Under the pieces are notes generated by a model. It was not told where the DNA came from and searched no databases. It saw nothing but the letters and a program-made list of their open reading frames with translations. DNA of 39,987 bases. Source: Terriglobales bacterium (GTDB taxonomy: Bacteria > Acidobacteriota > Terriglobia > Terriglobales > Acidobacteriaceae). Where the stretch lies: contig JASHOU010000025.1 of NCBI GenBank assembly GCA_030038475.1, forward strand, positions 1 through 39,987, read 5' to 3'. Each line of letters opens with the position of its first letter. Within the stretch, counting starts at the first letter, position 1. Of the stretch, positions 6,294 through 39,090 are shown piece by piece. Position numbers and translations under genes: made by a program.

Positions 6294-6380
6294 TATTGCT
6301 GGTTTCGGTGTCGTTTCATCAATATAAGTACATACCGGTAAGTGCATTATGATAATTACATTCTCGTTAATTCATGCACG

Positions 6381-7292: not shown

Positions 7293-7295
7293 GGT

Positions 7296-7392
7296 CAATT
7301 TGTGATTTCCAATTTGTAATTTGTAATTGAAGAGCGCGAGATGCGGAGGGCAATTTTTCAATTACAAATTACAAATTACCAATCACAAATTG
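7296..7392. repeat. Inverted pair of AATTACA 7-bp arrays between pyrR and pyrB
   Basis: The left arm (7296-7329) and right arm (7359-7392) are each 34 bases of roughly 7-bp units. They are near-perfect reverse complements differing at about three positions, around a 29-base spacer. The transcript could form a long hairpin. The right arm contains the pyrR stop codon and the left arm ends 4 bases from the pyrB start. Confidence 0.85.
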
Positions 7393-19610: not shown

Positions 19611-19623
19611 ATCTGCCATTACT

Positions 19624-20217
19624 CTATGGCGCTTCAATCAACTCCATCTTTCCATCCCGCGTGCGGTGCAGCACCATCAAGACGCCTTGAGGATCGCGAA
19701 AAACGAAAACATCCTTGTCGCGAAAATGCGCCTCTTTGATCGCTTCCTCAAGCGTCATCGGGCGAAGAGCGACCGAGTCCCTGGCATGAACCAGATGTAC
19801 TTCGGTGGTGCGCGCCACCGACGGAAATCTGTGAACGAGAACGGAGACCGTAGTACTGTCGGGCAGCCCGAGCGCCGCTCCCAGGTTTTCAGCCAGCGAC
19901 TGGCCGTCAAATTTCTTGCCTGCCTTGCGCTTTTTGCTCAGCCATTTCGTTTTATACTTGAGCGCCTGCTTCTGTAGATGATCGAGCGCCTCATTGACCG
20001 CCGACATCATATCCATGGTCTGCGCAAGTCCTACAATCGGACCGTTCGGCGGATTGATCGTGATCTCCGCCTTGTGGCGTCGCTTTTCGACAGCGAGAAT
20101 GACTTTCGTTTCAAAGCGATCGCCTAGAATTCTGCGGATCTTATTAAGGCCGGTTTCAACTTCCTTGCGGATGGCAGGAGTGAGTTCGTATTTCCTCGCG
20201 GTGTATTCCACGTTCAT
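19624..20217 (-). CDS. hpf: Ribosome hibernation promoting factor, long form
   Basis: Residues 1-100 are the HPF/RaiA ribosome-binding domain (MNVEYTARKYELTPAIRKEV; a central AVEKRRHKAEITI strand; MMSAVNEALDHLQKQALKYK). The C-terminal ~60 residues (RPMTLEEAIKEAHFRDKDVF, then GVLMVLHRTRDGKMELIE) form the dimerisation domain of long HPFs, which pair 70S ribosomes into inactive 100S particles. The ATG at 20217 has GAGGTG 6 bases upstream. It follows rpoN as in many proteobacteria, though ptsN and rapZ are absent here. A GAAAC-type inverted repeat fills the rpoN-hpf gap. Confidence 0.95.
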   Translation of the reverse strand: MNVEYTARKYELTPAIRKEVETGLNKIRRILGDRFETKVILAVEKRRHKAEITINPPNGPIVGLAQTMDMMSAVNEALDHLQKQALKYKTKWLSKKRKAGKKFDGQSLAENLGAALGLPDSTTVSVLVHRFPSVARTTEVHLVHARDSVALRPMTLEEAIKEAHFRDKDVFVFRDPQGVLMVLHRTRDGKMELIEAP

Positions 20218-20227
20218 CAGAACACCT

Positions 20228-20306
20228 CAAGTTTCAAGGTTTCAGAGTTTCAAGGAGAGATCGACACTCGCGGTTTACATTGAAACTTTGAAACCTTGAA
20301 ACCTTA
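20228..20306. repeat. Inverted GAAAC/GTTTC repeat between rpoN and hpf
   Basis: The left arm 20228-20255 (CAAGTTTCAAGGTTTCAGAG and following) mirrors the right arm 20279-20306 (TTGAAACTTTGAAACCTTGA and following) around a 23-base spacer. The rpoN stop codon (20304-20306) lies at the edge of the right arm. Confidence 0.85.
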
Positions 20307-22256: not shown

Positions 22257-22567
22257 TTCTTACGGATCAGGTTTCAAAGTTTCAGGGGTTGCAAGGTTTC
22301 AATGTCCAAAGTTTCAAGCTTTCAAAGTTTCGGTGTTCTGCTCCTCGAAACCTTGAAACTCCGAAACTTTAAAACTTTGTAACCTTGAAACTTGCCTTCC
22401 CTAACTTCTCATGCCACGCCATCTTACGGCTCGGCACGAAGGTGCAATCCCTCTACCTTTTGGTAACCAAAAACTAGTTCCTAATTCCCAGGGACCCGTT
22501 CCCAGCGCTCAGAAGGCGGCTTACGAGCTTTCCGACTGAGCACCGGGGACTGAGAAAAACCGTTCTT
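22257..22567. other. 311-bp gap between rpoN and lptB
   Basis: The first 140 bases hold the large inverted repeat. A short hairpin TTTTGGT-A-ACCAAAA lies at 22458-22472. Further degenerate CAGGGACCC / GACTGAGCACCGGGGACTGA units lie around 22488-22556. I see no gene here. Confidence 0.5.
22268..22394. repeat. Large inverted GTTTC/GAAAC array between lptB and rpoN
   Basis: The left arm 22268-22332 is built of GTTTCAAAGTTTC-type units and the right arm 22344-22394 of the reverse complement (TTGAAACTCCGAAACTTTAA and similar). Only 11 bases separate the arms. It begins 12 bases upstream of the rpoN start codon. Confidence 0.85.
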
Positions 22568-23296
22568 TCACACGAGCGAGAAACTCTCGCCCAGATAAAC
22601 CCGACGTACCTCCGGGTCACTTCCCAGTTCCTCCGGCGTTCCGGCGCGGAAGATTCGTCCGTCATTGATGATGTAGGCGCGATCCGTGACTGACAAGGTT
22701 TCGCGCACGTTGTGGTCGGTAATCAGAATACCGATCCCGCTGGCCCGCAGATCGGAAATGATCTTCTGCAGATCGAGAACAGCGATCGGGTCTATGCCCG
22801 AAAACGGCTCGTCGAGCAAAATGAACGTTGGATTGATGCAGAGCGAGCGAGCGATTTCAACCCTCCGCCGCTCGCCGCCTGAGAGTGCGTAGCCGCGATT
22901 TTGGCGTATGTGCTCCAGGCCAAGCTGATCAATCAGCTTTTCCGCCTTTTCCCGGCGTTCATGCCAGGAAATCGGTTGCACTTCGAGCACGGCTAGGATG
23001 TTCTCCTCTACCGTTAGTTTCCTGAACACTGAGGCTTCCTGCGGCAGGTAGCTGATGCCGTACTGCCGTGCCCGTAAGTACATGGGAACGTTGGTGATAT
23101 CTTCGTCGTCGTAGAGAACGCGGCCGGTGTCGGGAGGGATCAATCCGACGATGGCATAAAAAGAGGTTGTTTTTCCGGCACCGTTGGGCCCGAGAAGACC
23201 CACGACCTCGCCCTGGGTAACCTGAAGGCTTACTCCGCTGACAACGCGTCGGCGACGGTACGATTTGCCGATTTCGTCGGTTGCCAGCGTGTGCAT
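22568..23296 (-). CDS. lptB: LPS export ABC transporter ATPase LptB
   Basis: This 242-residue ABC ATPase has Walker [14 protein letters not shown]-loop [18 protein letters not shown] (the QE-A-S-V/I-F-R-x-LT signature is typical of LptB), signature [15 protein letters not shown] and Walker [17 protein letters not shown]. It also has the switch histidine in [11 protein letters not shown]. It powers lipopolysaccharide extraction from the inner membrane with LptF/G, which are not in this window. Its ATG directly follows the TAA of the lptC/A gene with no gap, so the two are surely co-transcribed and coupled. Confidence 0.96.
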
Positions 23297-25942
23297 TTAC
23301 CGTGCCACTTGGGTCCGGGTGACCGCAGGGGACTTTTCCCTTCCTTCCACGAGCACCCTATCATCGTGTCTGTAGAAAGTCAACGAATCGCCCGTGGTTT
23401 TGCCGCGTTCGGCATCAAAAATGCTGGGAAGTGTGCCCGACGAGCCGCCGGTGAGCACAAACTTATCGTCCGCCGACGTGTAGAGCAAGTGTTGCCCGGT
23501 CGCATGACGGGTCGGCTGCGTAATCACAACCTGGTCTTCGGCGATGATCCGGTCTACTTGCCCCGGCGTTGCTGGGTTCGTTCCGGCTTTCGATTGACTT
23601 CGCGGCAGCAAAAATACTGTCATCCTCTGCGCCGTCATCGTTGCGTCGATTTCTGTAGCCGTAACTCCGCCATCGAAGAGGGCTTTTCGTTCCGGGTCGG
23701 AGTAGTGGAGACGCGCCGAGGTGATGTTGATCGGTGTCACCTTCCCCGCCTTGTCAACCTGAACCAGCACGGTTGAAACCGGCTGGTCAAGAGTTTGGGC
23801 GGGAGCGGAGTTTTGCCCCGCGCGGTTGGAGCCGAGTCCCATCGTTGCACTGGTCTCGCCCGGAGAGGCACCGTTTGCAGATAAGCCATGAGCGAACAGA
23901 GAACGCCGGTCTCGGTCGAATTCCAGCGTGGGAGCGACCACTACATTCGCGTCCTGCCACAAATGCGCGTCGCCGGTATACACCGCAATTCCCGAGGAAC
24001 GATGCGCCGTCATGCTGTGGCTGGTGACATGGATCGGGTCGGAAGAAGCAAGCATGGCGCCATCCGGCTGCGCCTTCAGATCGGAGTACGTGCTTTTGAC
24101 ATTGCCCTCGGCAATGGCATCGCCAGTCACGCGGTTCATCGTGAGTGTTTCGGCCGTGGTCGTCATATTGCCGTCGACTGCCCGAGGCGACCCAGTCAGC
24201 ACGATAAGTTGGTCGGAGGTTGTATACTCTCCGCGCTGGGCCCAAGCCTTCTGCGCGCCACCGACGTAGACAAACTGACCGGTCTGGGTAATCGAGCGAA
24301 CGCCGCCCTCGGGCAAAAAGACAACATCAAGCATTCGGCTGGTAGAAACGCGCTGCGGCTGTGCCTTGGCGGATCCGGCCTTGCCGGCGTCGATCAGGCT
24401 GCTCACGATCTTTGCGTTGGGTTCTCCGTGCAGCGTGTCCAGGCGATTCTTATCGGTGAATGTTGCCGTAAATTTGGCGGAGGTAACCACCGTCTTTTGG
24501 TTCGCATCCGGCTGCGTGATCACGATCTGCGGTGGTCCAGTGGTTTCAGCGCTTTCCAGCAGCCGCCCGTCTTTCACAATGAAGTCCATCACTGGCGCGG
24601 TCATCTCGACGTCCTGATTGGTTGTCTTCGGCGCTATCGCTGGCCGTGCAGCGCCCGACGCCGGAGTTGCACTGGCTGCAGTGGAAGCGCCAGCAGCTGG
24701 TATGGCTGAAGATGAAATGGCGGAAGATGGCGGCTGCGGTGTGGCCGCTGCGACTGCTCCGCGCTGACTGTTCTTTTGCGTCAGGCGCACGCCATCTTCA
24801 GCGTGAATCGTTTGCAGAAGCTGTTGTCCGGCAGAGTTGTTGATGAAGTAAAGCGTCGCCTTTCCCGCTGTGGCTTCCGAGGGTTCTGCCTTCGGATTTT
24901 GCGCCTGTTGCTCCTGGGCTCCTTCCGAAGTAAGCCGGACATCGCCGGTGAGAATCGCCTTGGTAAGCAAGCTCCGCGATCCAGTCAGAAAGAATTCCGC
25001 GCGGTCGGAACGAGCACGTGTCCTTGGACTGGGATTCGTTGAACCAGAGGTGTTTGAACTGGAGATCGTTGAACTGGCGATCGAACTCGAAGGATTAGAG
25101 CCGGACATCCTTGCTTGCGATGGCGACTGGCCAAGACTCTCACTCTCCACATCGCCCTCGGCGAGAATGCGGTCCACTGTGTCGTCGTCACGAAGAAAGA
25201 ATGTTGCCTGGTCGGAGCGCGCTTCCTGCTCCGTACGGGTCATGTGCACGTCGGTGAGAAAAACCTGGTGGGGTTGCTTGGTGATTACGCCATGATCGGC
25301 ATTCAGATGAATCGGCTGCGGCCTGTTCACCGTCATTTCAACGGCCGACCGGAGGGTCATGGTGCCCGTCTTGGCTATGTATTCGAGACCCACTGCTGAC
25401 CCGGAGGCTTGCGGCGTCTGGAAAACGACTTTGCCGGTGGCAGAGGCGTCGCCGGTATTCTTGTTGAACACGAGCCCGTTGGTTTCGAGATGGATCGGGT
25501 TACGGGTTGGCTCCGGCGCAAATTGATCGGAGCGCCGCGGACCCTCAGGATTGGCTTGCAAATCGATCAGCACCTTGCCCTTCGCGCTCACATTGCCCGA
25601 TTCGGGATCGAACTCGAAGTCATCTCCGGCGATGCGGTCAAAGCGGCTGGCGTCCTTGCCGTAAATAACGATCTTGACGTTGTGCAAGTCCGCCCGTGCT
25701 CCCTCCTTGAACTGCACCGCTTTGGAAGCGCTCACGGTAAACTGCGTGCGCCCCTCGACGGATTTGGAAATGGAGAATCCGTCCGCGGTTTGCTGAATAT
25801 TCACGCCGAGCTTGGCAGGAATGGTGTGGACAATCTGGCGCAGCCTCCATTGTGCATAGAAGTACATGCCCGCGACAATCGCAATCATTAGAATTGCGCC
25901 CAGTGCGAACCAGCGGCGCAGACGTGAAACTGAAGAGGCCAT
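23297..25942 (-). CDS. Fused LptC/LptA-like LPS transport protein
   Basis: The N-terminus has one membrane anchor (FALGAILMIAIVAGMYFYAQ), then an LptC-like periplasmic domain (KAVQFKEGARADLHNVKIVI; ATGKVVFQTPQA). Several OstA/LptA beta-jellyroll stretches follow, with repeated A-x-G-x-V patterns (VDRILAEGDVESES; AIAEGNVKSTYSD; IIAEDQVVITQP). At 881 residues it is four to five times an E. coli LptA or LptC, so it may form much of the periplasmic bridge as one chain. Ser/Ala-rich linkers separate the domains, one made of 15-bp in-frame repeats. It precedes lptB with no gap. The assignment is firm for the superfamily; the exact split between LptC and LptA is inference. Confidence 0.88.
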   Translation of the reverse strand: MASSVSRLRRWFALGAILMIAIVAGMYFYAQWRLRQIVHTIPAKLGVNIQQTADGFSISKSVEGRTQFTVSASKAVQFKEGARADLHNVKIVIYGKDASRFDRIAGDDFEFDPESGNVSAKGKVLIDLQANPEGPRRSDQFAPEPTRNPIHLETNGLVFNKNTGDASATGKVVFQTPQASGSAVGLEYIAKTGTMTLRSAVEMTVNRPQPIHLNADHGVITKQPHQVFLTDVHMTRTEQEARSDQATFFLRDDDTVDRILAEGDVESESLGQSPSQARMSGSNPSSSIASSTISSSNTSGSTNPSPRTRARSDRAEFFLTGSRSLLTKAILTGDVRLTSEGAQEQQAQNPKAEPSEATAGKATLYFINNSAGQQLLQTIHAEDGVRLTQKNSQRGAVAAATPQPPSSAISSSAIPAAGASTAASATPASGAARPAIAPKTTNQDVEMTAPVMDFIVKDGRLLESAETTGPPQIVITQPDANQKTVVTSAKFTATFTDKNRLDTLHGEPNAKIVSSLIDAGKAGSAKAQPQRVSTSRMLDVVFLPEGGVRSITQTGQFVYVGGAQKAWAQRGEYTTSDQLIVLTGSPRAVDGNMTTTAETLTMNRVTGDAIAEGNVKSTYSDLKAQPDGAMLASSDPIHVTSHSMTAHRSSGIAVYTGDAHLWQDANVVVAPTLEFDRDRRSLFAHGLSANGASPGETSATMGLGSNRAGQNSAPAQTLDQPVSTVLVQVDKAGKVTPINITSARLHYSDPERKALFDGGVTATEIDATMTAQRMTVFLLPRSQSKAGTNPATPGQVDRIIAEDQVVITQPTRHATGQHLLYTSADDKFVLTGGSSGTLPSIFDAERGKTTGDSLTFYRHDDRVLVEGREKSPAVTRTQVAR
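25023..25082. repeat. In-frame 15-bp tandem repeat inside lptC/A (4 units)
   Basis: The units CTTGGACTGGGATTC, GTTGAACCAGAGGTG, TTTGAACTGGAGATC and GTTGAACTGGCGATC lie contiguously at 25023-25082. In the gene's frame they encode a Ser/Asn/Thr-rich linker (SSTIS, SSNTS, GSTNP). Confidence 0.8.
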
Positions 25943-26018
25943 TTGAAGTTAGTGTAACGCGGGCGAGGCAGTTCCCAGTTCGCAGTGAAACCCTTCGAAA
26001 CTTGGAGGTTTTACTGAG

Positions 26019-26060
26019 AACTGACAACTGACAACTGACAACTGATAACTGATAACTGAA
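26019..26060. repeat. 7-bp tandem repeat AACTGAC (6 units)
   Basis: The units are AACTGAC x3, AACTGAT x2 and AACTGAA, exactly contiguous. They lie between the lptC/A start and the end of the RDD gene. A GTTCCCAGTTCGCAG stretch and a GAAAC-type stretch lie just before (25970-26015). Confidence 0.95.
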
Positions 26061-26062
26061 AA

Positions 26063-26683
26063 CTACAATCTCCGCACCAGCGTCCCGGCGAGCAAATCGT
26101 GCAATCCCTGCTTGCGTTCGGTGAATGCGACCATAATGTAGCCGATGCCCAGAATCATCGCCGAGAGCCACTTGGCAAAATGCCTTCCCGTCGCCTGGCC
26201 GAATGAGATTCGATTGCCATTGAGGTCGGTAACTTTCATTCCGAAGATCATTTTCCCGATCGTCGCCTGGTAAGCCGAGCTTTCCATGAATGCTTCATAC
26301 AGCCAGGAACCAAACAGCAATGCGACGAACGTAGCGCCGCCGCCTAAAATCGCCAGGGCAAGAGGATGGACGCCACTCATGACGCCCGCCAGACCGATAC
26401 CACCGAAAATGGCATGAAGCGGGGAGACGACCACGCGCAGGATGATGGCGTCAATAAGGGCCGCAACCACGCGAATCCAGAAGCCCCCATAGGCAATTCC
26501 CACCGCCGGCGCAACCGGATACGCGGGAGCAGCAGTTGCATAGGAGTATGCCGGAGTTGGCGCTGGCGGCATGGGCGGTGTGCCGGCCGGCGCCGGGTTC
26601 ATAGGTGCTCCGCAGCGGCTGCAAAACTGAGCTTCAGCGGCATTCGGCGTGCCGCATTTGTTGCAGAAAATAGTTCCATTCAT
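26063..26683 (-). CDS. Zinc-ribbon RDD family membrane protein
   Basis: Residues 1-25 form a zinc ribbon (C7-x2-C10 ... C21-x2-C24). A Pro/Ala-rich linker leads to an RDD domain beginning GGFWIRVVAALIDAIILRVV, with R and D in the first helix and later G-K-x-x-x-G-x-K-V patterns (TIGKMIFGMKVTDLNGNRIS). Three or four membrane helices are visible. RDD proteins are thought to transport small solutes or ions; some act as Na+/H+ antiporters. The specific role is unknown. Its stop is 2 bases from the AACTGAC array. Confidence 0.85.
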   Translation of the reverse strand: MNGTIFCNKCGTPNAAEAQFCSRCGAPMNPAPAGTPPMPPAPTPAYSYATAAPAYPVAPAVGIAYGGFWIRVVAALIDAIILRVVVSPLHAIFGGIGLAGVMSGVHPLALAILGGGATFVALLFGSWLYEAFMESSAYQATIGKMIFGMKVTDLNGNRISFGQATGRHFAKWLSAMILGIGYIMVAFTERKQGLHDLLAGTLVRRL

Positions 26684-26764
26684 GCCCCGGCACTATAAAG
26701 TCGGATCGGTTACTTGTCAAAGACTGATTCAGCAAAAGAAGAGACGCGGGTGAAGGCGCTACAA

Positions 26765-28669
26765 TCACCGTGCTCGCCTTAGATCCCGCAGGGTCAGCTC
26801 CAGTCCTCCGAACTCGGGATGGTCGTTCATACCGAGCGAATAGGCGATGTCGATGCGGTCGCCGGCCAGCAACTGCAACCGGTCGCAGCATTCCTTCAGA
26901 GACCAGCCCATCGCCTGGAATGCAATGTTGTTGCGCCAAGACGATTGCGATTGTGAGAATGGGGCTTGTGTGATGGCGGGGCTTGGCCCTGCCATGACGG
27001 GGTAGAGCCCCGTCACCACACTGCTGTCGAGATGGCAGCGTGGAGTGAAGTCTTGCGCTCCGGTGGATGCGCCATTAACGGCTGCTGTCACTCGAAGCCG
27101 AACATGCTTGTCTTTTACCGTTTGCGGAGGCGCCATCAGCCGCACTGCTCGCGCGGCGAAGACCGGTTCGGGGTTTTCCATCCCAAAAGGCTCCAGCAAG
27201 ACGAGCGCTTGATGAAGTTCAGGAGTTACCTCTCCCAGCGGCAACTCCCGATCGAACTCAAGCTGCGGCTCGAAGTCATCGAGGGTAAGCCGAGAGCGCG
27301 CATATCCTTCCAAATGTTCGCGCAGTTTCTCCACATTCGCCGCTGGCATGGCAAACCCGACTGCGTGCGCGTGTCCGCCGTAGCGTGAAAACAGTTCATG
27401 GCAGGATTCGATGGCGTGCAAGAGGTGAAACGCGGAAATCGACCGTCCCGAGCCGTATGCCTGGTCGCCTTCGCGCGAAATTACAACCGTCGGTCGCCCG
27501 TGACGATCTACGACACGCGACGCGGTGATGCCAATGACCCCGCGGTGCCAGCCGTCGCCATCCAACACCATGCAATAGGCGTCGCGCAGCCCGGGTTCTT
27601 CGTCGAGCCGGCGCTCAATGCTCTCCATGATGCGCCGCTCTTCGTCCTGGCGTTCGGCGTTCAGTTGATCGAGACGGCCGGCGATCTTGCGGGCGCGATC
27701 CATATCTTTTTCCTGGAAGAGATCGACCACATCGCGAGCCACATCCATGCGTCCGGCGGCATTCAATCGAGGCGCGATGCGAAACGCGACTTCGGTCGCG
27801 GTCAGCGCCCGCCCATCGCCAAGTTTCGCAACTTCAAGCAACGTCTTTAACCCGACGTTTACCGGGCGGCGCAATCCCTCCAATCCCAGTTTCGCGAATA
27901 CCCGATTCTCGCCGAGCAATGGAACGGAGTCCGCGATGGTCGCGATCGCCACTACTTTCATGAATGACATCAACAGTCGCGACAGATCCTTAGCATCCAG
28001 ACGCCGCTGCATCAATCCCTGCGCCAGTTTGAAGGCCACGCCCGCGCCGCACAGATATTTGCAGGGATAATCGCATCCCGCCTGGTTTGGGTTCACCACG
28101 GCCAGCGCCCGCGGAACGCCGTCGGTTCCCGGCAAGTGATGGTCGGTGACGATGAGATCGACTCCACTACGCCGTGCGGCGTCGGCGGCGGTGAATGCCC
28201 GGATTCCGCTATCCACGCTGATAATCAGGCGCACGCCCTCAGCCGCAGCACGCTCGATGACATCGTCGCGCAGGTCATAGCCCTCGCGAATGCGATGCGG
28301 CACATGAAAATCAGCGGCCCCGCCGCACAGTTCAATGGCCGTCTTGAGGATGACGATCGCCGTCGTGCCGTCGACGTCGTAGTCGCCATAAATCAGAATC
28401 TTCTCTTTGCGCTCAAGAGCTGCTTCCAGACGATCCAGAGCCGATTTCATCCCGCTCATCAGCAGCGGATCGTGCAGATCGCCAAGTGCCGGGGCGAGAA
28501 AACGGGCCGCCAATTCGGGCTCATCGATCCCGCGGCCGACCAGAAGGTCGGCTAATACCGGCAAAGCCGCAGAGGGAATTTTCGATTTGGAGTCGAGCAG
28601 GGCCGCTTCCAGCATCCGCGCTTTAGCAACATCAGTCGGATTGGAGATCCATCGCATGGGCAGAACCAT
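26765..28669 (-). CDS. recJ: Single-stranded-DNA-specific exonuclease RecJ
   Basis: RecJ degrades single-stranded DNA 5' to 3' in recombination and mismatch repair. DHH-phosphoesterase motifs appear in order: ILIYGDYDVDGTTA, LIISVDSGIRA, DLIVTDHHLPG, and in the DHHA1 part FSRYGGHAHAVGFAMP. The C-terminal OB-like domain follows (LEFDRELPLGEV). About 45 extra residues are inserted in this last domain between LRVTAAVNG and NIAFQAMGW. They are encoded by a region containing a compact palindromic element. The start at 28669 (MVLPMRWISNP) is chosen; ATG 28657 is as likely. Confidence 0.94.
   Translation of the reverse strand: MVLPMRWISNPTDVAKARMLEAALLDSKSKIPSAALPVLADLLVGRGIDEPELAARFLAPALGDLHDPLLMSGMKSALDRLEAALERKEKILIYGDYDVDGTTAIVILKTAIELCGGAADFHVPHRIREGYDLRDDVIERAAAEGVRLIISVDSGIRAFTAADAARRSGVDLIVTDHHLPGTDGVPRALAVVNPNQAGCDYPCKYLCGAGVAFKLAQGLMQRRLDAKDLSRLLMSFMKVVAIATIADSVPLLGENRVFAKLGLEGLRRPVNVGLKTLLEVAKLGDGRALTATEVAFRIAPRLNAAGRMDVARDVVDLFQEKDMDRARKIAGRLDQLNAERQDEERRIMESIERRLDEEPGLRDAYCMVLDGDGWHRGVIGITASRVVDRHGRPTVVISREGDQAYGSGRSISAFHLLHAIESCHELFSRYGGHAHAVGFAMPAANVEKLREHLEGYARSRLTLDDFEPQLEFDRELPLGEVTPELHQALVLLEPFGMENPEPVFAARAVRLMAPPQTVKDKHVRLRVTAAVNGASTGAQDFTPRCHLDSSVVTGLYPVMAGPSPAITQAPFSQSQSSWRNNIAFQAMGWSLKECCDRLQLLAGDRIDIAYSLGMNDHPEFGGLELTLRDLRRAR
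26967..27020. repeat. Compact palindromic element inserted in frame in recJ
   Basis: Two adjacent hairpins lie inside the gene. ATGGCGGGGC/GCCCTGCCAT has a 3-base loop (26973-26995), and TGACGGGG/CCCCGTCA has a 5-base loop (26995-27015). They are enclosed by an outer imperfect pair GTGTGATG/CACCACAC. Standard RecJ sequences have no counterpart here. Confidence 0.6.
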
Positions 28670-28722
28670 CGCATCAGAAGAACCAGAGTAGCAGCCCCGC
28701 AACTTGGGCAGAAGGTCTTATG

Positions 28723-31251: not shown

Positions 31252-32037
31252 ATGGATCGAATCGTCTTCGAATCCGTTAGCAAGATATTTCGCCATCGTC
31301 CCGCGCTGTTCAATTGGCTGGGGCGCGAACGGCGTGGCGAAACCCTCGCCTTGAAAAACATTTCTTTCTCGGCCCCGCCCGCCGAAGTCCTGGCGCTGCT
31401 CGGACCGAACGGCAGCGGAAAAACCACCGCTCTCAAGCTGATCTCGACGATGCTTCTTCCTGACGGCGGCGCAGTGTATGTGGGCGGATTCGATGCTCGG
31501 CGAGATGCGGACAAAGTCCGTCGGCAAGTGGGCATCGCGGTCGCGACCGAGCGCTCATTCTTTCCTCGTCTTTCGGCGCATGAGAACCTTGACTTCTTCG
31601 CCGCGCTCGATGAAGTCCCGCGCCGCGAGCGCAGGCAAAGAATCGAAGAAGTTCTTTGCGATACCGGTCTCGAAGAGCAAGCCGATACGCTGGTCATGAA
31701 GTTCTCGAGCGGCATGTACCAGCGACTGGGTATCGCCCGCGCGCTAGTCAAGCGCCCCAGCGTGCTTCTGCTGGACGAACCAACCCGCAGCCTGGATGCC
31801 GCCACAACGGCTCATTTCTGGGCCACCATCCGCGCGCTGGCGCGACAGGGAACGACGATTTTGCTCGCGACCCACAACTTCGCGGAAGTGGCGGCCGTGG
31901 CGGATCGCCTGCTTCTTTTGCGTCGCGGCGAATTGCTCGCCACGCGCGAGCTCGACGCTGGCGAGAACACCGAAGCCCTGCGCCTGTTTTATTTCCGCAT
32001 GACTGGCGAGATCGATGAAGCAATTTGCAATTTGTAA
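31252..32037 (+). CDS. ABC transporter ATP-binding protein
   Basis: Walker A GPNGSGKTTALKL, signature FSSGMYQRLGIARAL, Walker B VLLLDEPTRSLDAAT and the switch His in LLATHNFAEVA define an ABC ATPase of the drug/polysaccharide-export type that partners ABC-2 permeases. The N-terminus has an extra stretch before the core (FRHRPALFNWLGRERRGETL). The final residues (EAICNL) are read from the AATTACA-type repeat, so the original C-terminus may have been replaced. The permease gene follows after that repeat. With the modification operon downstream it could export a peptide; that is inference. Confidence 0.92.
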   Translation: MDRIVFESVSKIFRHRPALFNWLGRERRGETLALKNISFSAPPAEVLALLGPNGSGKTTALKLISTMLLPDGGAVYVGGFDARRDADKVRRQVGIAVATERSFFPRLSAHENLDFFAALDEVPRRERRQRIEEVLCDTGLEEQADTLVMKFSSGMYQRLGIARALVKRPSVLLLDEPTRSLDAATTAHFWATIRALARQGTTILLATHNFAEVAAVADRLLLLRRGELLATRELDAGENTEALRLFYFRMTGEIDEAICNL

Positions 32038-32141
32038 TTGGTAATTTGCAATCGGCAATTGGGTTGGGCCTTCGATGCGTGTGTCGTCTGGTCTTGAAAT
32101 TACAAATTAGAAATTGCAAATTACAAATACAAATTACAAAT
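32021..32141. repeat. Inverted AATTACA-type array between the ABC genes
   Basis: The left arm 32021-32062 (CAATTTGCAATTTGTAATTG and more) and right arm 32097-32141 (AAATTACAAATTAGAAATTG and more) are reverse-complementary arrays of 7-bp units. The consensus is the same as at 7296-7392. It overlaps the ATPase stop codon and touches the permease start codon. Confidence 0.87.
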
Positions 32142-32940
32142 GCCTTCCGCTCTTGACAAGCTCCTTGCCATCCTGCGTCGCGATCTTCTTACTTCCATCC
32201 GGCACCGCAGCGGTTTTGTTGTGACCCTGGTCGGCGTGTTCACCGAATTGGCGGCTTTCTATTTTCTCTCGCATGCTATCGGCTCCGGGTTTCGACCGGA
32301 TGGCCTCGAATATTTCCCGTTTCTGCTGGTTGGCACCGGTGTCTACACCTTTTTTGTCGCCAGCGCGCAATCTTTTCTGAGCGCGGTGCAGGAAGCGCAG
32401 CAAACCGGAACGCTCGAGGTGCTGATGACCACTTCCACCGCCCCGGCTGAACTCGTCGTCCTGAGTGCCATTTCTGCCTTTGCCGGAAAATTGGTGAATC
32501 TGCTGATCTACCTTTTCGCCGGCGTGGCAGTGTTCCGCGCCTCAATTCACGCCAACATATTGTCCTGCGCGGCGGTATTGATTCTTTGTCTCGCCATCGC
32601 CCTGGCTCTCGGGATTTTCGCCGCCACGCTTCAGGTTGCTTTCCAGAAAGGCGCGACCCTGCTCTGGATGCTCGGTTCCGGACTGTGGTTCTTGAGTGGA
32701 ACTTTGTTCCCCATACAGACCTTGCCCCGCACTCTTGAACTGCTGGCCCGCGCGGTGCCCCTCACCTACGCCATCGATGGAATGCGAGGAGCGCTCATCG
32801 AAGGCCGATCCATAGTCTCGCTGGCGCCGACGCTGGCTGTGCTTGCGGGGTTTGGCGTGGTGCTGCTGCCGCTTGCCTTGGCCGGCTTGTCGCTCAGCCT
32901 GCGTCGTGCACGGCAGAATGGAACGCTATCGTTTTATTGA
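32140..32940 (+). CDS. ABC-2 type transporter permease
   Basis: The 266-residue protein has about six membrane helices (GFVVTLVGVFTELAAFYFLS; FPFLLVGTGVYTFFVASAQS; SAFAGKLVNLLIYLFAGVAV; ILCLAIALALGIFAATLQVA; LLWMLGSGLWFLSGTLFPIQ; the last near LAVLAGFGVVLLPLALAGLS). The ABC-2 motif region around the fifth helix is typical. The loop QEAQQTGTLEVLMTTSTAPAE is the usual coupling helix region. The ATG directly follows the repeat and has no ribosome site. It is the partner of the ATPase upstream. Confidence 0.92.
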   Translation: MPSALDKLLAILRRDLLTSIRHRSGFVVTLVGVFTELAAFYFLSHAIGSGFRPDGLEYFPFLLVGTGVYTFFVASAQSFLSAVQEAQQTGTLEVLMTTSTAPAELVVLSAISAFAGKLVNLLIYLFAGVAVFRASIHANILSCAAVLILCLAIALALGIFAATLQVAFQKGATLLWMLGSGLWFLSGTLFPIQTLPRTLELLARAVPLTYAIDGMRGALIEGRSIVSLAPTLAVLAGFGVVLLPLALAGLSLSLRRARQNGTLSFY

Positions 32941-33070: not shown

Positions 33071-33271
33071 ATGAACGACCACCGCGCCCCTGAAGAAAAT
33101 CGGCGACAGCTGACGAACCTGGGTCTGACGAACCTAGCTAAGGGAAAAAGGCCCTACAAGAAGCCAGACTTTCGCTTCGAACGAGTCTTCGAAACGCAAG
33201 CGCTATCTTGCGGCAAAACCGTCGCCGACACCGGCTATCCCCAATGTCAGTTTTCCAGCAAGAGTTCCTGA
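33071..33271 (+). CDS. Candidate RiPP precursor peptide (66 aa)
   Basis: A short basic leader (residues 1-28) contains LTNLGLTNL, read from repeat-like DNA. It is followed by PYKKPDFRFERVFETQALSC and a C-terminal part with two cysteines (C47 and C59) and Ser/Lys at the end. The TGA (33269-33271) overlaps the ATG of the peptidase gene (TGATG), implying coupled translation and a real gene. The arrangement small peptide - peptidase - kinase - PqqD - radical SAM is that of a ribosomally synthesised modified peptide. A core beginning near residue 44 (ALSCGK...) is a guess. No strong ribosome site is visible at 33071; the true start may lie slightly further in. Confidence 0.6.
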   Translation: MNDHRAPEENRRQLTNLGLTNLAKGKRPYKKPDFRFERVFETQALSCGKTVADTGYPQCQFSSKSS

Positions 33272-33810
33272 TGCCGGTGGGCGCTTTTAGCGCGGAGCAC
33301 TTGCGTGGCAGCGCAGAACGCACCGCGTTGCTGGCCGAAGCGTTTCGCTGCTTTGACCGATTGTCCGGGAACATACGTCTGCGAGTTTACGGCGAAAGCA
33401 TGCTCCCGGCCCTTTGGCCGGGCGACGTGGTCGAGATCGTAAGTTGCTTGCTCGGAGACATTCGGCCCGGGGACATCGTGCTCGCACGGCGCGACGGGCG
33501 GCTGTTTCTGCATCGCCTGATCGAAGCTAACAGAAACTGTTTCCTGCTGCGGGGCGATTCCATGCCAGCTTGCGACCCGGAGTATTCTGCCGAAGCGCTG
33601 ATCGGACGGTTGACCGACCGACGGCGTACCAACGGACGATTGGGGATCAGAAATAACGCCAGCCTGGCCTCGCGTCTCAAAGTGGTGTGGTATCGCACGG
33701 CGGGGTTCTTATTGTGTCATTGTGGGATGGCGCGGCGTCTTGCCCTTAGACTTCACGCCCGAGGACGCCAATCATCGCTCGGCGAAGTTCCGAGCCCGGA
33801 ACTTTTGTAA
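33271..33810 (+). CDS. S24/S26-type peptidase with Ser/His signature
   Basis: The 179-residue protein has the signal-peptidase fold motifs: VYGESMLPALWPGDVV with the catalytic Ser S43, IRPGDIVLARRDGRLFLHRL with His H81 where bacterial type I signal peptidases have Lys, and LLRGDSMPACDPE. The Ser/His pair resembles Sec11/SipW-type peptidases. There is no N-terminal membrane anchor; one weak hydrophobic patch (VVWYRTAGFLLCHCGMA) is near the C-terminus. It most plausibly cleaves the leader of the 66-residue peptide. The ATG at 33271 is chosen by overlap with that gene; the stop TAA shares a base with the kinase ATG. Confidence 0.82.
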   Translation: MPVGAFSAEHLRGSAERTALLAEAFRCFDRLSGNIRLRVYGESMLPALWPGDVVEIVSCLLGDIRPGDIVLARRDGRLFLHRLIEANRNCFLLRGDSMPACDPEYSAEALIGRLTDRRRTNGRLGIRNNASLASRLKVVWYRTAGFLLCHCGMARRLALRLHARGRQSSLGEVPSPELL

Positions 33811-34652
33811 TGCCTACACCTCGCAAGACTGCGTGCGTCGAGATCGGAGGGATTCCGATCGGGCTTTTGACTGACAGCGATCATTTTTTCAATTTGCTTT
33901 GCAAGCGCTACCACGGGTTCCTGAGTTCGTCGCGGCCCGAATTCGAGTTTGAGTTCGATCTGATTCCCGCCGGGCCGGCTTCCGATGAAGAGGCTCGCGT
34001 GCGCCGCGAGGGCGACGACTGGATATTGGAGCGTGGAGACTTCCATGTTCGCTGCGACCTGCGCCATGGACGGGGAGTTGTGCGGCAAAGCGCGAACCTG
34101 TATTCGCTCGATTCCGTCCTGCGCCTTGTCCATAGCCTGATTCTGGCCCAGCGCGGCGGATTTTTGCTGCACGCCGCCAGCGCAATTTGCCAACTCCCGG
34201 GCTCGAGCGTCAACGACCGAGCCTTTCTATTTTCGGGAGTGTCGGGTGCGGGCAAGACCACGATGACGCGGCTCGCACCCGAAGATGTCACCCTGCTGAC
34301 CGATGAAATCTCCTATGTGCGCCCGAACGCCGGCAGCTACGCGGCGTTCGGAACTCCTTTTGCCGGAGAACTTGCCAAGCCGGGCGAAAACCGCTCGGCT
34401 CCTGTTGCCGCACTGTTTTTTTTGGAGAAGGGACTGGAAAACCGCGTCGAAGAATTGCCATCTGCGGAAGCGGTGCGCCGCCTGATGCGCAACATTCTGT
34501 TTTTCGCCGAAGATCAACGTCTGGTGGAAGCACTTTTTGCGACGGCTTGCGATTTCGTCGCCCGCATTCCTGTTCGCCGCCTGACGTTCTATCCCGATGG
34601 CAGAGTCTGGGACGAAATCCGCGAGTTCAACGAGGTGGCCGAACATGTCTGA
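33810..34652 (+). CDS. HprK-like P-loop kinase
   Basis: The N-terminal ~110 residues form a divergent domain ending with the marker LLHAAS (H121). The P-loop FSGVSGAGKTTM (about residues 141-152) and the following LLTDEISYV (Asp165, Glu166) match the HPr kinase/phosphorylase type. The C-terminal HprK motif is not obvious. Such HprK-related proteins occur in peptide-modification cassettes next to PqqD and radical SAM genes (I recall the SynChlorMet cassette, unverified). The substrate may be the precursor peptide. It starts one base inside the peptidase stop and overlaps pqqD-like by 8 bases. Confidence 0.85.
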   Translation: MPTPRKTACVEIGGIPIGLLTDSDHFFNLLCKRYHGFLSSSRPEFEFEFDLIPAGPASDEEARVRREGDDWILERGDFHVRCDLRHGRGVVRQSANLYSLDSVLRLVHSLILAQRGGFLLHAASAICQLPGSSVNDRAFLFSGVSGAGKTTMTRLAPEDVTLLTDEISYVRPNAGSYAAFGTPFAGELAKPGENRSAPVAALFFLEKGLENRVEELPSAEAVRRLMRNILFFAEDQRLVEALFATACDFVARIPVRRLTFYPDGRVWDEIREFNEVAEHV

Positions 34653-34953
34653 AAATCCCATTTACGTTGCGCGCAACTCTGCGATCGCGGCGCGGGCGCT
34701 GGCTGGCGAAATGATGGTGATGAACTCGGCCGATTCCACCTTCTTCACTTTGAATGAAGTCGCAACCGTGATTTTTCAAGCGGCCGACGGCCGCACCCCC
34801 CTGCGCGAAATTGTGCGCGACCGCGTGTGTAAGCAGTTTGAGGTCGATCTCGCTGAGGCCGAAGCCGACGCCGAGCAGCTCGTCTCAGAACTTTCCCAGC
34901 ATGGAATCTTAATAACGTCGAACCAGCCGCTGCCCTCGGAGACCTCCCGATGA
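34645..34953 (+). CDS. PqqD-like peptide chaperone
   Basis: The 102-residue protein begins MSENPIYVARNSAIAARALA and shows the PqqD pattern: strands (MVMNSADSTFFTLNEVATVI) followed by a winged-helix part (GRTPLREIVRDRVCKQF; AEQLVSELSQHGILI). PqqD proteins bind the leader of a precursor peptide and present it to a radical SAM enzyme. The ATG at 34645 has GAGGTGG 6 bases upstream; the longer frame from 34597 is out. It overlaps the kinase gene by 8 bases and the radical SAM gene by 4 (ATGA). Confidence 0.9.
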   Translation: MSENPIYVARNSAIAARALAGEMMVMNSADSTFFTLNEVATVIFQAADGRTPLREIVRDRVCKQFEVDLAEAEADAEQLVSELSQHGILITSNQPLPSETSR

Positions 34954-36068
34954 CCCTCATGAGTGAGGTCGGGCAGAAGGCATTCGATCTGGGAGTGCCG
35001 CTCGCCGTTCACATGGATGTGACTTACCGCTGCAACGAGCGTTGCGTCCATTGTTATCTCGATCACGACGATCACGGGGAGATGACGACCGCAGAAATCA
35101 CGGACGCGCTCGATCAACTGGCTGACGCCGGCGTTTTCTTTCTTACGTTCAGTGGCGGCGAAGTTTTTATGCGCCGCGATTTCCTTGAGATCGTCGAATA
35201 CGCGCGCCGCCTCATGTTCAACGTGAAGATCAAAACCAATGCGGTCATGATTCATGAACAAGAGGCACGCAGAATCCGCGAACTGGATGTCGATACGATC
35301 CAGATCAGCGTTTACTCGCATCGTCCTGAAGTGCACGATGCCATCACCAAGCTGCCGCATTCATTCGAGCGCACCATCAATGCGGTTCGCTTTCTGCGCG
35401 ACCAGGGTCTTCGTGTCACCATCGCTAATGTCCTCATGACGGTCAACTCCGCCGATCACAGCGGCGTGCAAAAACTTGCCGCCGAACTCGGTGTGAACTA
35501 CACCCTGGATCCCACGATTACGCCGATGATGGATGGCGACACCTCGGTGCTTGCGCTGCGCATTCCGGGAGAAGAACTGCCGTCCATCTTTCGCAATCCC
35601 GCGCTGGTCGACAATCAGGAAGAGTTCTGCGCGCCGCCCAAACCGCCCTCGGAAAAAGATCTTGAAGGCTATTCGTGCAGCGCCGGCCACTCGTTCTGCT
35701 ACATTTCGCCTTACGGCGATGTTTTCCCCTGCGTGCAGTTCCCGCTTCCCACGGGAAACATCCGTCAGCAGAAGTTTCTGGATATCTGGAATTTCTCTCC
35801 GCAGATGAAAGAGGTTCGCTCGATCCAGGCCAAAGACTTGACTGTCTGTTCGTCGTGCTCGCACGTCACGAGTTGCTCGCGCTGTCCGGGCTTGGCTTAT
35901 ATGGAAGGCAGCATGCGCGGTCCATCGACGACCGATTGCGAAAAGTCGTTCTACCGCACGGGCGTGCCCACGGCGAACATGCTGCGACAGGGCTTATCGA
36001 AGCCGCGCTCCCTGGCGCGCTCTGGTGCCCCACTGATTCAGATTCAACCCGTCGCTGCCCCCGCCTAG
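34950..36068 (+). CDS. Radical SAM/SPASM peptide-modifying enzyme
   Basis: The radical SAM cluster motif is C28-x3-C32-x2-C35 (TYRCNERCVHCYLD), with the SAM-binding TFSGGEVF at residues 66-73. The SPASM part contains C243, C250, C261, C300, C303, C309, C312 and C330, enough for two auxiliary iron-sulfur clusters. Such enzymes modify peptide side chains, for example forming thioether or carbon-carbon links. With a PqqD protein upstream and a Cys-containing small peptide in the operon, thioether or Cys-linked chemistry is a reasonable hypothesis. The last ~30 residues are a variable tail. It ends 27 bases from the convergent GGDEF gene. Confidence 0.94.
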   Translation: MTLMSEVGQKAFDLGVPLAVHMDVTYRCNERCVHCYLDHDDHGEMTTAEITDALDQLADAGVFFLTFSGGEVFMRRDFLEIVEYARRLMFNVKIKTNAVMIHEQEARRIRELDVDTIQISVYSHRPEVHDAITKLPHSFERTINAVRFLRDQGLRVTIANVLMTVNSADHSGVQKLAAELGVNYTLDPTITPMMDGDTSVLALRIPGEELPSIFRNPALVDNQEEFCAPPKPPSEKDLEGYSCSAGHSFCYISPYGDVFPCVQFPLPTGNIRQQKFLDIWNFSPQMKEVRSIQAKDLTVCSSCSHVTSCSRCPGLAYMEGSMRGPSTTDCEKSFYRTGVPTANMLRQGLSKPRSLARSGAPLIQIQPVAAPA

Positions 36069-36095: not shown

Positions 36096-38870
36096 CTACA
36101 GGTTTTGTCCAGCGGCGTGGCTGCGTTTCCGATCCGCCATTTCCGCATTCGACAGTTGTTCCAGAATGCGTTGCAGCGTCGCGCGCATTTCGTTGGTCGT
36201 TTCGTAAAACTTCAGCGCGGCTCCGATACCCATGTCCATCCGCACGACCTCGGCTTGAATCGAAATATTTGAACGCTCGTGCGAAAAGTTCAGTTGCAAC
36301 TGAGATTTCGGCAACAAGAGGCCGCTGGTTTCAATGTAGCAACCGCCCAGGCTCAGGTTGGTAATGATGCCCAGCATCTGTTCCATCCCGGTTCCAGAAA
36401 TTTCGGCAGTGAAGCGGCCCCACACTCGCGGATAAAGCCGGCGATTCTTCGTGTGTGGCTGACTCCGCTTTTGCAGATACATGCGCTTATCCGCTTCGGA
36501 GAGAATTCTTTCGGCATCCATCCCATCTTCTGGATATACCGCGTTGCCAACACTCAACGACAGGATGTCCTCGTTGCAAACGTCCCTGCCCGCCTGTTGC
36601 GCCAGTTCGCGCATGTGCTCCGCTTTGCGCCCCGCGGCTTCCGGAGTGAGTCCGGGAGCGATGACCACGAATTCGTCGCCACCCATGCGCGCTACATAGT
36701 CATATTCGCGGCTGATTTCCTTCAGCGAGCGCGCAAAGAGTCGCAGCACGCGGTTGCCTTCCAGGTGCCCGAAGCGGTCGTTAATCTGCTTGAAGCCGTC
36801 CATATCGGCGACCATAACGGTCAGCGTCTTGTTGTCGCGTTTGCAGCGCGCCATCTCCCGGTCGAGCTGCAAGAATAGCGATCGTGCGTTGGGAAGACCG
36901 GTCAAATAGTCGGTCACCGCCGAATTCTCCGCCTGCTCGTATTTCACTGCATTCTCGATGGCCAGCGCCATCTTGGAGCTGACTGCCAGCAAAATGCGCA
37001 GATGGTCGGAGGTGAAGAAATCCTTCTCGGCGTGATACAGGGCGACTACTCCGACCACGCCCTGCAAACCCTCGAGCGGAACCGCGAGCGCTGAGTTCAG
37101 CGTGCTGTACTTGGAAGCGTCGTTCAGATATCCAGGTTCCACCGAAGGGTTACCGTTCAAAATCGGTTTTAGATTTTGCGCGACCCATCCCGAGAGTCCT
37201 TGCCCGATCGGGATGCGCAGCGAAGCAAACAGCCGGAAGTTGTCGCCGTTGACATATTCCGGCACAAGTTCATCGCCGTGGCGGACGTAGATGGCAATTG
37301 CGTCATAAGGCATCGCCCGGCGCAGTTTCACCGCGAACACGGAGAGCGTTTCGCCCAGGCTCAGCGACGCTCCCAGATCCTGGCTGAGTTCGAAAAGAGT
37401 CTGCGCCTCTTGGCGCGCCGCTGCAATCGAGCTTAGAAAAGTGCGCTCTGGAAGTTGGCGCCTTCCCTGCGCTTCGAATCCGGCTGCAGGCTTGATAGCC
37501 GGCTCAATATTCACGTCGTGGTCTTTGACCTCGACCTCAGTGGACAGTTTGTGCTTGCCCCGAGCATCCGTCCGTTGCCGTACCAAACGCTCCAGATCCA
37601 CATATCTTTTTTGCAGCACCTTGACTACTTCCGGATCGAACGCCTTCCCCGACTCATCCACCAGCCTCGCCATAGCCTCATCGAGCGCCAATGCCCGCCG
37701 ATATTGCCGGTCCGACGCGAGCGCGTCCAGAAAATCCACCGCCGCCAGGATTCGGGCGCCAATTGGAATCTGCGCCCCGCGCAGCCCCAATGGGTAACCG
37801 GTGCCGTCGAATTTCTCGTGATGGGCCCGCACGATCGGCACAACCGGATAGGGGAATTGCACGCGTTCCAGAATTTCTGCGCCCACCAGTGGATGAATCT
37901 TCATTTTCTCGAATTCTTCCGGCGTAAGCCGGCCTGGTTTCGAGATGATATGTTCAGGAATTGCCAGCTTGCCGATATCGTGCAGCAAAGCCGCAGCCTG
38001 CAACGCCTCGCTCTCCTCACGGCTGACTTTAAGCTCCTTGGCAACCTCGACCGCGTACACGCGCACTCTCTGCAAATGGTCGTGGGTCGTCTGGTCCTTG
38101 GCCTCGATGGCGAGCGCCAACGCCTCGATCGTGCGCATGTGCAAATCGGCGATTTCTTCGACGTGCCGCTTTTCGTCTTCCAATTTGCCGAGGTAAAGCC
38201 GGTAAGAGCGGTAAATAAGATATACAACCGGAAGCGTCAGCAACGAGGTTTGCCAATCGGTAAAGTTGTGCAGCCAGCTCATCATGCCGGCTACGCCTGC
38301 TCCCACCAGGTAATAGGGGAAGCTCCAGAAGTAGCAATCCGCCCAGATCTTTCGCAGCGATCTGCGCTCGGTCAGGGATATGATGGCCGCCACGGGAAGC
38401 GTGTTGGCGACGAAATAGACGGACGCGGCCATGAACAGCAGGGTAGAGGGGTTATTGACCAACTCATGTGCGAGCGAGTAGCGATACGCGAAAAATGTTA
38501 CGGCGATGGCCAGCGCGGTCGAGCAGACATTGAAAGCGACCTGAATCGGAACCGGACGATCGCGGCCCAGACACTGCACCACCACCGCGGCACACCCCAG
38601 CGCCATGGCTTCCGACAAACTCAACTCCAGCACACCCAGCAGCAGAAAGAGAAAATTCACCGACATTGTGCCGGTGATGCCGGGAAGGTTTACCTTGAGC
38701 CGCGAGGCGGCCAGTGCAATCACGAAATAACAGAGAAACTTGAGCGGATTCTCGCTGCGGCCATGTAGAACGGAATAGGTCAGGACCGCCGTGCCGCAAA
38801 TGACGACCACGGCCAGAAAAAAACGTGGTGCTGCGCTGAGTTCCCTCCAGGATTGAGGGCGAGTTGCCAT
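36096..38870 (-). CDS. Membrane HD-GYP / GAF / GGDEF / PilZ c-di-GMP protein
   Basis: Seven or so N-terminal membrane helices form a sensor module (first: FFLAVVVICGTAVLTYSVLH). A complete HD-GYP domain follows (LLHDIGKLAIP; HHEKFDGTGYPLGLRG), then a GAF domain (LGASLSLGETLSVFAVKLRR). A GGDEF domain has the intact motif ARMGGDEFVVIAPG after DYLTGLPNARSLFL. A PilZ domain closes the chain (NLSLGGCYIETSG). Domains that make, break and bind cyclic-di-GMP are thus in one protein. The ATG at 38870 has AGGAG about 10 bases upstream; an in-frame ATG at 38936 would add 22 Pro/Arg-rich residues. It is probably monocistronic. Confidence 0.92.
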   Translation of the reverse strand: MATRPQSWRELSAAPRFFLAVVVICGTAVLTYSVLHGRSENPLKFLCYFVIALAASRLKVNLPGITGTMSVNFLFLLLGVLELSLSEAMALGCAAVVVQCLGRDRPVPIQVAFNVCSTALAIAVTFFAYRYSLAHELVNNPSTLLFMAASVYFVANTLPVAAIISLTERRSLRKIWADCYFWSFPYYLVGAGVAGMMSWLHNFTDWQTSLLTLPVVYLIYRSYRLYLGKLEDEKRHVEEIADLHMRTIEALALAIEAKDQTTHDHLQRVRVYAVEVAKELKVSREESEALQAAALLHDIGKLAIPEHIISKPGRLTPEEFEKMKIHPLVGAEILERVQFPYPVVPIVRAHHEKFDGTGYPLGLRGAQIPIGARILAAVDFLDALASDRQYRRALALDEAMARLVDESGKAFDPEVVKVLQKRYVDLERLVRQRTDARGKHKLSTEVEVKDHDVNIEPAIKPAAGFEAQGRRQLPERTFLSSIAAARQEAQTLFELSQDLGASLSLGETLSVFAVKLRRAMPYDAIAIYVRHGDELVPEYVNGDNFRLFASLRIPIGQGLSGWVAQNLKPILNGNPSVEPGYLNDASKYSTLNSALAVPLEGLQGVVGVVALYHAEKDFFTSDHLRILLAVSSKMALAIENAVKYEQAENSAVTDYLTGLPNARSLFLQLDREMARCKRDNKTLTVMVADMDGFKQINDRFGHLEGNRVLRLFARSLKEISREYDYVARMGGDEFVVIAPGLTPEAAGRKAEHMRELAQQAGRDVCNEDILSLSVGNAVYPEDGMDAERILSEADKRMYLQKRSQPHTKNRRLYPRVWGRFTAEISGTGMEQMLGIITNLSLGGCYIETSGLLLPKSQLQLNFSHERSNISIQAEVVRMDMGIGAALKFYETTNEMRATLQRILEQLSNAEMADRKRSHAAGQNL

Positions 38871-39090
38871 TCGCGACGCACTCCTGCCCCTGACTCCGGG
38901 TCGCGATTCCCCGGGGCAAAAAGAGGGAACACTCATTGATAACAGTCGGCGAAGGGACAGGAAAGGATTGGGGCATTTGGAGACAAACTTCCGTAATCTG
39001 GTAACGTGACCTTCTGGCCGCGGTTCCGCCCAGAAGGTATTGAAACTGCGCTAGATTGCGATTGGAATGCGGGCTGTCGGTTACGGAAAA

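Follow-up and report, generated by a model that had tools for sequence, protein, structure and literature searches.

A conserved five-gene radical SAM operon of a Terriglobales bacterium, a probable maturation system for a ribosomal peptide related to linear polyphosphorylated and phosphorylated lasso peptides

The closest described relatives of the system presented here are the Linear Polyphosphorylated Peptides (LPPs), reported in May 2026 from the lpp cluster of Paenibacillus alginolyticus (Bacillota; Nat Commun, PMC13381572). The LPP set consists of the peptidase LppS (S29, H68, D93), the RiPP recognition element (RRE) LppB, the HprK-like kinase LppK, the nucleoside triphosphate (NTP) transferase LppN, and an MsbA-like exporter. 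The LPP leader reads YxxPxVLxHQxIxFETxxS and is cut by LppS after FET with the help of the RRE, N33 and D70 of LppB contact Pro-13 and Tyr-16 of the leader, and LppK targets Ser3 of the core, which bears up to four phosphates; the final product and its role are stated as unknown by the authors (PMC13381572). Related kinases are described for the phosphorylated lasso peptides, where BsfK (motif H-G-G-G-K-S-D-D; leader YxxPxL) targets Ser3 (PMC10368454), PadeK and ThcoK phosphorylate a C-terminal Ser, and the action of PsmN places hexoses on the pseudomycoidin phosphoserine (PMC9266682). Here, we analyzed a stretch of 39,987 nucleotides from a Terriglobales soil bacterium (GCA_030038475.1, contig JASHOU010000025.1, positions 1-39,987, forward strand; referred to as the window), which contains a five-gene operon at 33071-36068 on the plus strand. 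This is probably the maturation operon of a ribosomally synthesized and post-translationally modified peptide (RiPP), related to LPPs and phosphorylated lasso peptides and equipped with a radical S-adenosylmethionine (SAM) step.

The operon encodes a peptide, a peptidase, an HprK-like kinase, a PqqD-type RRE, and a radical SAM/SPASM enzyme, all on the plus strand and with successive overlaps. The gene of the 66-residue precursor peptide (33071-33271) ends with the stop codon TGA at 33269-33271 and is overlapped as TGATG by the Ser-His peptidase gene, which runs from the ATG at 33271 to the TAA at 33810. The kinase gene (ATG 33810 to TGA 34652) follows with the overlap TAATG, the RRE gene (ATG 34645 to TGA 34953) with an overlap of 8 bp, and the radical SAM/SPASM gene (ATG 34950 to 36068) with one of 4 bp (ATGA). 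A preliminary description of this DNA had reported the same five overlapping genes, and both their order and their overlaps are confirmed by the coordinates read from the sequence.

The precursor matched no NCBIfam or Pfam family, and its profile gave zero matches among solved chains. Its leader contains KRPYKKPDFRFERVFET (with Y29, P32, F40, and T42), followed by QALSCGKTVADTGYPQCQFSSKSS with C47, C59, and the C-terminal S66, and the consensus reads KKPYxKPxFRxERVFET-xALxCGK...C...S. In an alignment of the window peptide with 62 homologues, Y29, P32, F40, C47, and C59 are invariant, position +3 after FET (L45) is nearly so, and all 62 homologues end in Ser. These rows represent 62 of the 65 plus-strand full-length motif peptides with a usable start; the three excluded ones (loci L037, L061, and L068) are Ser-ended as well. 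Among 113 distinct tails of the loci used here, 111 have the C-terminal Ser, and the remaining two come from the fragmented gene copy of L006. Two or three Cys are present in 112 of these tails. For this count, 121 distinct closed tails were considered, from which six that fall short of the profile end were excluded (five short out-of-class peptides ending in Ser and one decayed copy in L185), as was the frameshifted L035. The residue preceding the first Cys varies (Ser 44, Ala 32, Thr 17, Arg 10, Gln 6, other 3), and the C-terminal Ser is therefore the constant hydroxyl of the core. The ratio of nonsynonymous to synonymous substitution rates (dN/dS) had a median of about 0.22-0.23 over the whole gene for 16 close sequences. 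By region, it was 0.53 ahead of the leader motif, 0.076 (0.06-0.08) within this motif, and 0.34 for the part beginning at C47. The peptide gene is real and under purifying selection, which is strongest in the leader motif. A chance free-standing open reading frame (ORF) was also considered and rejected, because the peptide is conserved both in place and in sequence and its dN/dS is low.

The radical SAM protein was then used to scan genome contigs, and 80 loci were kept, 76 of them with Acidobacteriota-type names; since the loci were located via this enzyme, sets without it would be missed. Transfer or mislabelled bins may explain the other four, whose labels read Burkholderiales (L073), Proteobacteria (L096), Binatus (L104), and Nevskia (L106). 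A cultured relative, Granulicella mallensis (L080), has the set as well. According to gene profiles, PqqD stands beside the radical SAM gene in 77 of 79 loci, the HprK-like kinase in 74 of 77, the S24 peptidase in 73 of 75, and the peptide in 63 of 71, each denominator being the loci with sufficient DNA upstream of the radical SAM gene. The neighbourhood comparison proposed in the preliminary description, covering PqqD, HprK-like, and radical SAM genes with an alignment of the small ORF, thus found this ORF conserved beside homologous enzymes, and with the purifying selection on it the claim of a peptide-modification (RiPP-type) operon holds. Upstream of the peptide, a second PqqD-like match was found in L055 (3667-3921) and L061 (4498-4767). 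One other family of the class shows the rearranged order nucleotidyltransferase, HprK, PqqD, radical SAM, peptide, S24; all five genes are present in five of the six loci fetched, the sixth missing only S24 in the fetched DNA, and the peptides of this family end in CGKLPGQGGVCNAAPRRS or similarly.

Searched directly, the peptide was found in 47 of 299 genomes of the class (E ≤ 0.01) and in 16 of 396 genomes of the phylum (E ≤ 0.001). Outside the class, eight of the ten matching genomes were fetched. The peptides are short in seven of these loci (MKKPYEKPxIxxxEKxExRAxxCxK...C...S) and longer in L153, and all ten out-of-class peptides seen end in Ser. The eight stretches hold a relative of the radical SAM enzyme in four cases, an HprK-like gene in three, and an S24 gene in two. 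Adjoining the complete set and a PF14907-type gene of L153, an ORF at 6203-7618 resembles a B12-binding radical SAM protein, as judged from its N-terminal sequence.

With regard to the enzymes, the peptidase matched PF00717 with 27.5 bits (cut-off 23.3), and TIGR02228 remained below its cut-off. S43, H81, D96, and D102 are invariant in 18 of 18 aligned sequences, and the best solved chains for its profile were SEC11C (3e-10) and SEC11A (1.5e-9), with LexA repressors ranking after these. The protein is predicted to be an S24/S26-type Ser-His(-Asp) peptidase similar to SEC11 and archaeal signal peptidase I, and would act as the leader peptidase, a counterpart of LppS. For the kinase, no Pfam match exceeded its cut-off, matches to ScmC (41.4 of 125 bits) and PEPCK were sub-threshold, and its sequence gave no significant match among solved chains. 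H121, the P-loop G143...K149-T150-T151, and D165-E166 are kept in all 77 aligned rows, and the AlphaFold model (mean predicted local distance difference test, pLDDT, of 89.9) adopts a PEPCK-type fold with a top Z of 15.2; HprK itself is absent among the 50 structural matches listed. We predict that this HprK-like kinase phosphorylates the peptide, with the C-terminal Ser as the most likely target.

The PqqD-type RRE matched PF05402 with 48.7 bits (cut-off 23.4). Among solved chains, its profile ranked the lasso-type proteins TbiB1 (2e-10), PbaB1 (9x90, 1.1e-8), and TfuB1 (5e-8) before PqqD (7.1e-6) and LppB (9x8z, 1.2e-5), and its conserved N37 and D75 align with the Asn and Asp of LppB, mapped by spacing to N33 and D70. 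It is predicted to be a lasso-B1-like RRE that binds the YxxPxF leader. The radical SAM enzyme matched PF04055 with 89.0 bits (cut-off 29.5) and the SPASM family PF13186 with 44.9 bits (cut-off 21.5). It carries CX3CX2C and the complete seven-Cys SPASM set (C243, C261, C300, C303, C309, C312, C330) as well as an extra conserved C227, and its Cys residues are kept in 98-100% of 81 rows. Among solved chains, the sactipeptide maturase SkfB comes closest (8.4e-15), and 5v1q and 5wgg, which we take to be SuiB and CteB, as well as PqqE (8.2e-6) are found further down the list. This enzyme is predicted to modify the Cys-containing core. No NCBIfam model was reached at cut-off; because of this and of the conserved, selected small ORF, neither of the two observations that the preliminary description had named as contrary to its proposal was made, namely a small ORF missing beside homologous peptidase genes or a radical SAM enzyme from a characterised non-peptide family.

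We infer a pathway of five steps, in which the RRE would first present the precursor by binding the leader at its YxxPxF segment. The radical SAM/SPASM enzyme would then install a bond or another radical modification in the core, likeliest via the Cys of ALxCGK...C, and the HprK-like kinase would phosphorylate the C-terminal Ser, to which in most genomes a PF14907 nucleotidyltransferase, a relative of PsmN, may attach another group. Subsequently, the signal-peptidase-like Ser-His peptidase would cut off the leader, most likely after FET, and an ABC (ATP-binding cassette) exporter, here a DrrAB-like pair, would carry the product out. The resemblance of the leader YxKPxFRxERVFET to the LPP leader YxxPxVLxHQxIxFET speaks for such a pathway, and so, by analogy, does the constant C-terminal Ser when set beside the C-terminal Ser targeted by PadeK and ThcoK.

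Several points weigh against this assignment. Conservation continues beyond FET into ALxCGK, so that the leader cut could alternatively fall before the Cys, and the kinase carries Asp-Glu where BsfK carries Asp-Asp. The second-best solved chain for the radical SAM enzyme is cytosylglucuronate decarboxylase (8.6e-8), and its top NCBIfam models by E-value are those of the haem enzymes NirJ2 (142.9 of 500 bits) and AhbD (133.0 of 500), with the peptide maturase models ranking after these and all far under cut-off. From these rankings, it follows that the assignment of a peptide substrate owes more to context than to the enzyme's own sequence, from which its reaction is not readable. Finally, the peptide is not in place at eight of the 71 loci (L039, L051, L058, L075, L084, L099, L106, and L110), and the copies in L035 and L100 are broken yet counted as present. 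The eight loci would also suit a reading in which the enzymes have another substrate and nothing to do with the small ORF. We regard this as highly improbable, given the conserved leader, the selection on the gene, the position kept in two gene orders, and the further copies that most same-genus genomes without an intact cis copy hold elsewhere.

Such copies were followed in 24 same-genus genomes, of which 23 gave one to three peptide matches each, 48 in total; the operon accounts for 22 of these, and 26 lie at 25 other loci. The window's own genome has three peptide matches and one close kinase copy. Its second full peptide gene (L145, contig C185, 237-413), whose product ends in CGKTHSQGGPCHTHPSSS, converges on a propeller-like gene (1072-2943), and its third (L146, contig C43, 8791-8901) meets the contig end right after FET. 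New here is that same-genus genomes hold up to three peptide genes, and that the off-operon copies often stand beside a large propeller-like gene. The propeller label is tentative; the protein had no Pfam match, its model is poor (pLDDT 56.5), and Foldseek matched it to propeller enzymes at low TM-score. At the operon itself, 46 radical SAM loci with long flanks contained a propeller-like gene in 28 cases, a PF14907 gene in 29, and at least one of these in 41, and in L110 the peptide lies on the opposite strand between two propeller-like genes. PF14907 nucleotidyltransferases are present in 13 of 13 same-genus genomes, on another contig in some relatives; the only one of the window's own genome (L114, contig C100, 4272-5498) lies apart from the operon.

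Peptides are paired with other large proteins in further clades. L150 contains two near-identical peptides (7134-7283 and 10158-10304) and L151 one (6491-6655). Behind each of them come a large protein, which in L151 scores over cut-off for CBM96, and a small lipoprotein-like ORF ahead of the S24 gene. In L159 (7066-11562) and L160 (7673-11863), the genes directly after the short peptides encode C25 (gingipain-type) peptidases that carry fn3/PKD domains, and FG-GAP proteins are the partners in L156 and L158. The tie of the peptide to large proteins that are apparently secreted, as their N-termini suggest, is the most surprising point of this work, and these neighbours give a starting point for testing what phosphorylated RiPPs do.

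One reading of these pairs is that the mature peptide serves one large secreted protein as its own ligand, cap, anchor, or cofactor, and that the operon is a maturation centre shared by scattered peptide-protein pairs. A propeller-like gene lies close to the peptide at 18 of the 25 off-operon loci. Across same-strand pairs, the propeller-like gene ends 11-52 bp before the peptide (measured to profile starts) in 25 of 32, and the CBM96, C25/fn3, and FG-GAP pairs fit as well. However, no propeller-like gene was found at the other seven loci (L190, L196, and L197 intact, L189 broken, L201 partial, L146 and L200 cut by the contig end); the peptides of L196 (3300-3470) and L197 (3268-3411) occupy the same place in two genomes, beside genes that look to us like SMC and SAICAR synthetase. 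Conversely, 13 genomes contain 22 propeller-like genes, only eight of which adjoin a peptide, the window peptide adjoins ABC genes, and the core is variable, unlike that of PqqA-type cofactor precursors. The identification as a propeller is also weak, and secretion is deduced from the N-termini. We consider this reading rather unlikely. A broader proposal, which we offer tentatively as a possibility, is an Acidobacteriota-wide system in which one enzyme set (RRE, radical SAM/SPASM, HprK-like kinase, peptidase, and nucleotidyltransferase) would mature several radical-modified and C-terminally phosphorylated, perhaps glycosylated, peptides. Each would be dedicated to one large secreted protein (propeller-like, CBM96, FG-GAP, or C25) and act on or with it at the cell surface, not as a free antibiotic-like product.

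The operon unit extends past the five genes, with an ABC pair upstream here and a PF14907 and/or propeller-like gene flanking it in relatives. In the window, a DrrA-like ABC transporter ATPase (31252-32037, plus strand; PF00005 over and TIGR01188 below cut-off) and an ABC-2 type permease (32140-32940, plus strand; PF01061 over cut-off), which ends 130 bp upstream of the peptide gene, are the probable exporter subunits. An ABC ATPase also lies upstream in some related loci, and the permease family occurs in 22 of 81 clustered loci, the window counted in. No promoter-like site was found in the search, and terminator-like sites numbered 8, in line with the 7.2 of shuffles. On the other side, a 946-residue protein (36096-38936, minus strand) with HD-GYP- and GGDEF-like motifs, recognized by eye, converges on the operon, and its family occurs in 22 clustered loci. 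Further away (18309-28702), the window holds housekeeping-type genes for an HDOD/EAL protein, sigma-54, an LptC/LptD-N protein, and a RecJ-like DHH protein.

For comparison with known systems, SynChlorMet had been suggested as a possibly related cassette, and HprK-like, PqqD-like, and radical SAM proteins do co-occur in it. It is not the right family, with all models far below cut-off (ScmC 41.4 of 125, ScmD 17.5 of 100, ScmE and ScmF 100.5 and 58.4 of 400 bits), and no papers on it were found by full-text literature search. The SynChlorMet cassette has two radical SAM proteins (ScmE and ScmF), the present operon one. PqqD (22.9 of 46 bits) and PqqE (98.8 of 381) also stayed below cut-off, and the SynChlorMet, PQQ, mycofactocin, GeoRSP, and HPr-rel-A families were rejected since every match was under the curated cut-off. 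With the radical SAM/SPASM peptide pathways (SkfB, SuiB, CteB/SCIFF, PqqE, mycofactocin), the operon shares a PqqD-type RRE and a SPASM enzyme that probably acts on a small leader-bearing peptide, and with sacti- and ranthipeptides the Cys in the core. In contrast to these pathways, it has a kinase, a Ser-His leader peptidase, and a C-terminal Ser, and none of their models reached cut-off.

The likeness to phosphorylated lasso peptides (paeninodin, pseudomycoidin, Bsf) comprises the YxxPx leader, the B1-type RRE, the HprK-like kinase, and the nucleotidyltransferase, and for paeninodin also the C-terminal Ser. However, a Ser-His peptidase and a radical SAM enzyme stand here in place of the B2 peptidase and the macrolactam synthetase. 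The B2 family PF13471 had 0 matches across the window's own genome, with a control search matching in two of 14 genomes, and no macrolactam synthetase was present among the seven operon proteins examined; an identity as lasso peptide was rejected as the genome is without PF13471.

The LPPs share the Ser/His/Asp signal-peptidase-like peptidase, in which S43, H81, and D102 correspond in type to S29, H68, and D93 of LppS, the discrete lasso B1/LppB-type RRE with the leader-contacting Asn and Asp retained, the HprK-like kinase (Asp-Glu here, not Asp-Asp), and an NTP transferase, PF14907 being likened to LppN by role and not by Pfam family. In the leader, Y, P, and FET are kept, but the middle differs and the distance from Y to T is two residues shorter here. 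All these components would also fit an ordinary LPP, in which a linear peptide is phosphorylated and the radical SAM enzyme has its role elsewhere or makes only a minor change. Yet the radical SAM gene overlaps the PqqD gene and stays with the set in the rearranged order too, and conservation falls on two Cys and the C-terminal Ser instead of Ser3, so that we judge an ordinary LPP to be improbable. Because Ser3 and an in-cluster MsbA-like exporter are both missing (an ABC ATPase and an ABC-2 permease take the exporter's place in the window), the operon was not classed as LPP. The host is also different, Acidobacteriota as opposed to Bacillota, and the added radical SAM/SPASM enzyme has no counterpart in the text of the LPP article, where "radical sam" occurs 0 times (PMC13381572).

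The preferred assignment thus remains a relative of both groups with a radical SAM step. What the preliminary description called a candidate new RiPP class is indeed a RiPP-type operon, but it is no orphan and is better described as a radical-SAM-bearing relative of the LPP and phosphorylated lasso group. Likewise, the kinase and the Ser/His peptidase are less unusual as a set than had been proposed, as the LPPs already have both (PMC13381572), while for the radical SAM version of such a set no report was found in our full-text literature search. Joining radical SAM/SPASM core modification with HprK-type phosphorylation and signal-peptidase-type leader removal is a combination that we did not find in print, and the short precursor with its sharply marked leader and modification sites, together with the contiguous genes, makes the system amenable to co-expression and mass spectrometry. 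The operon is a real, conserved peptide-tailoring system and a radical-SAM-bearing variant of the kind described in 2026.

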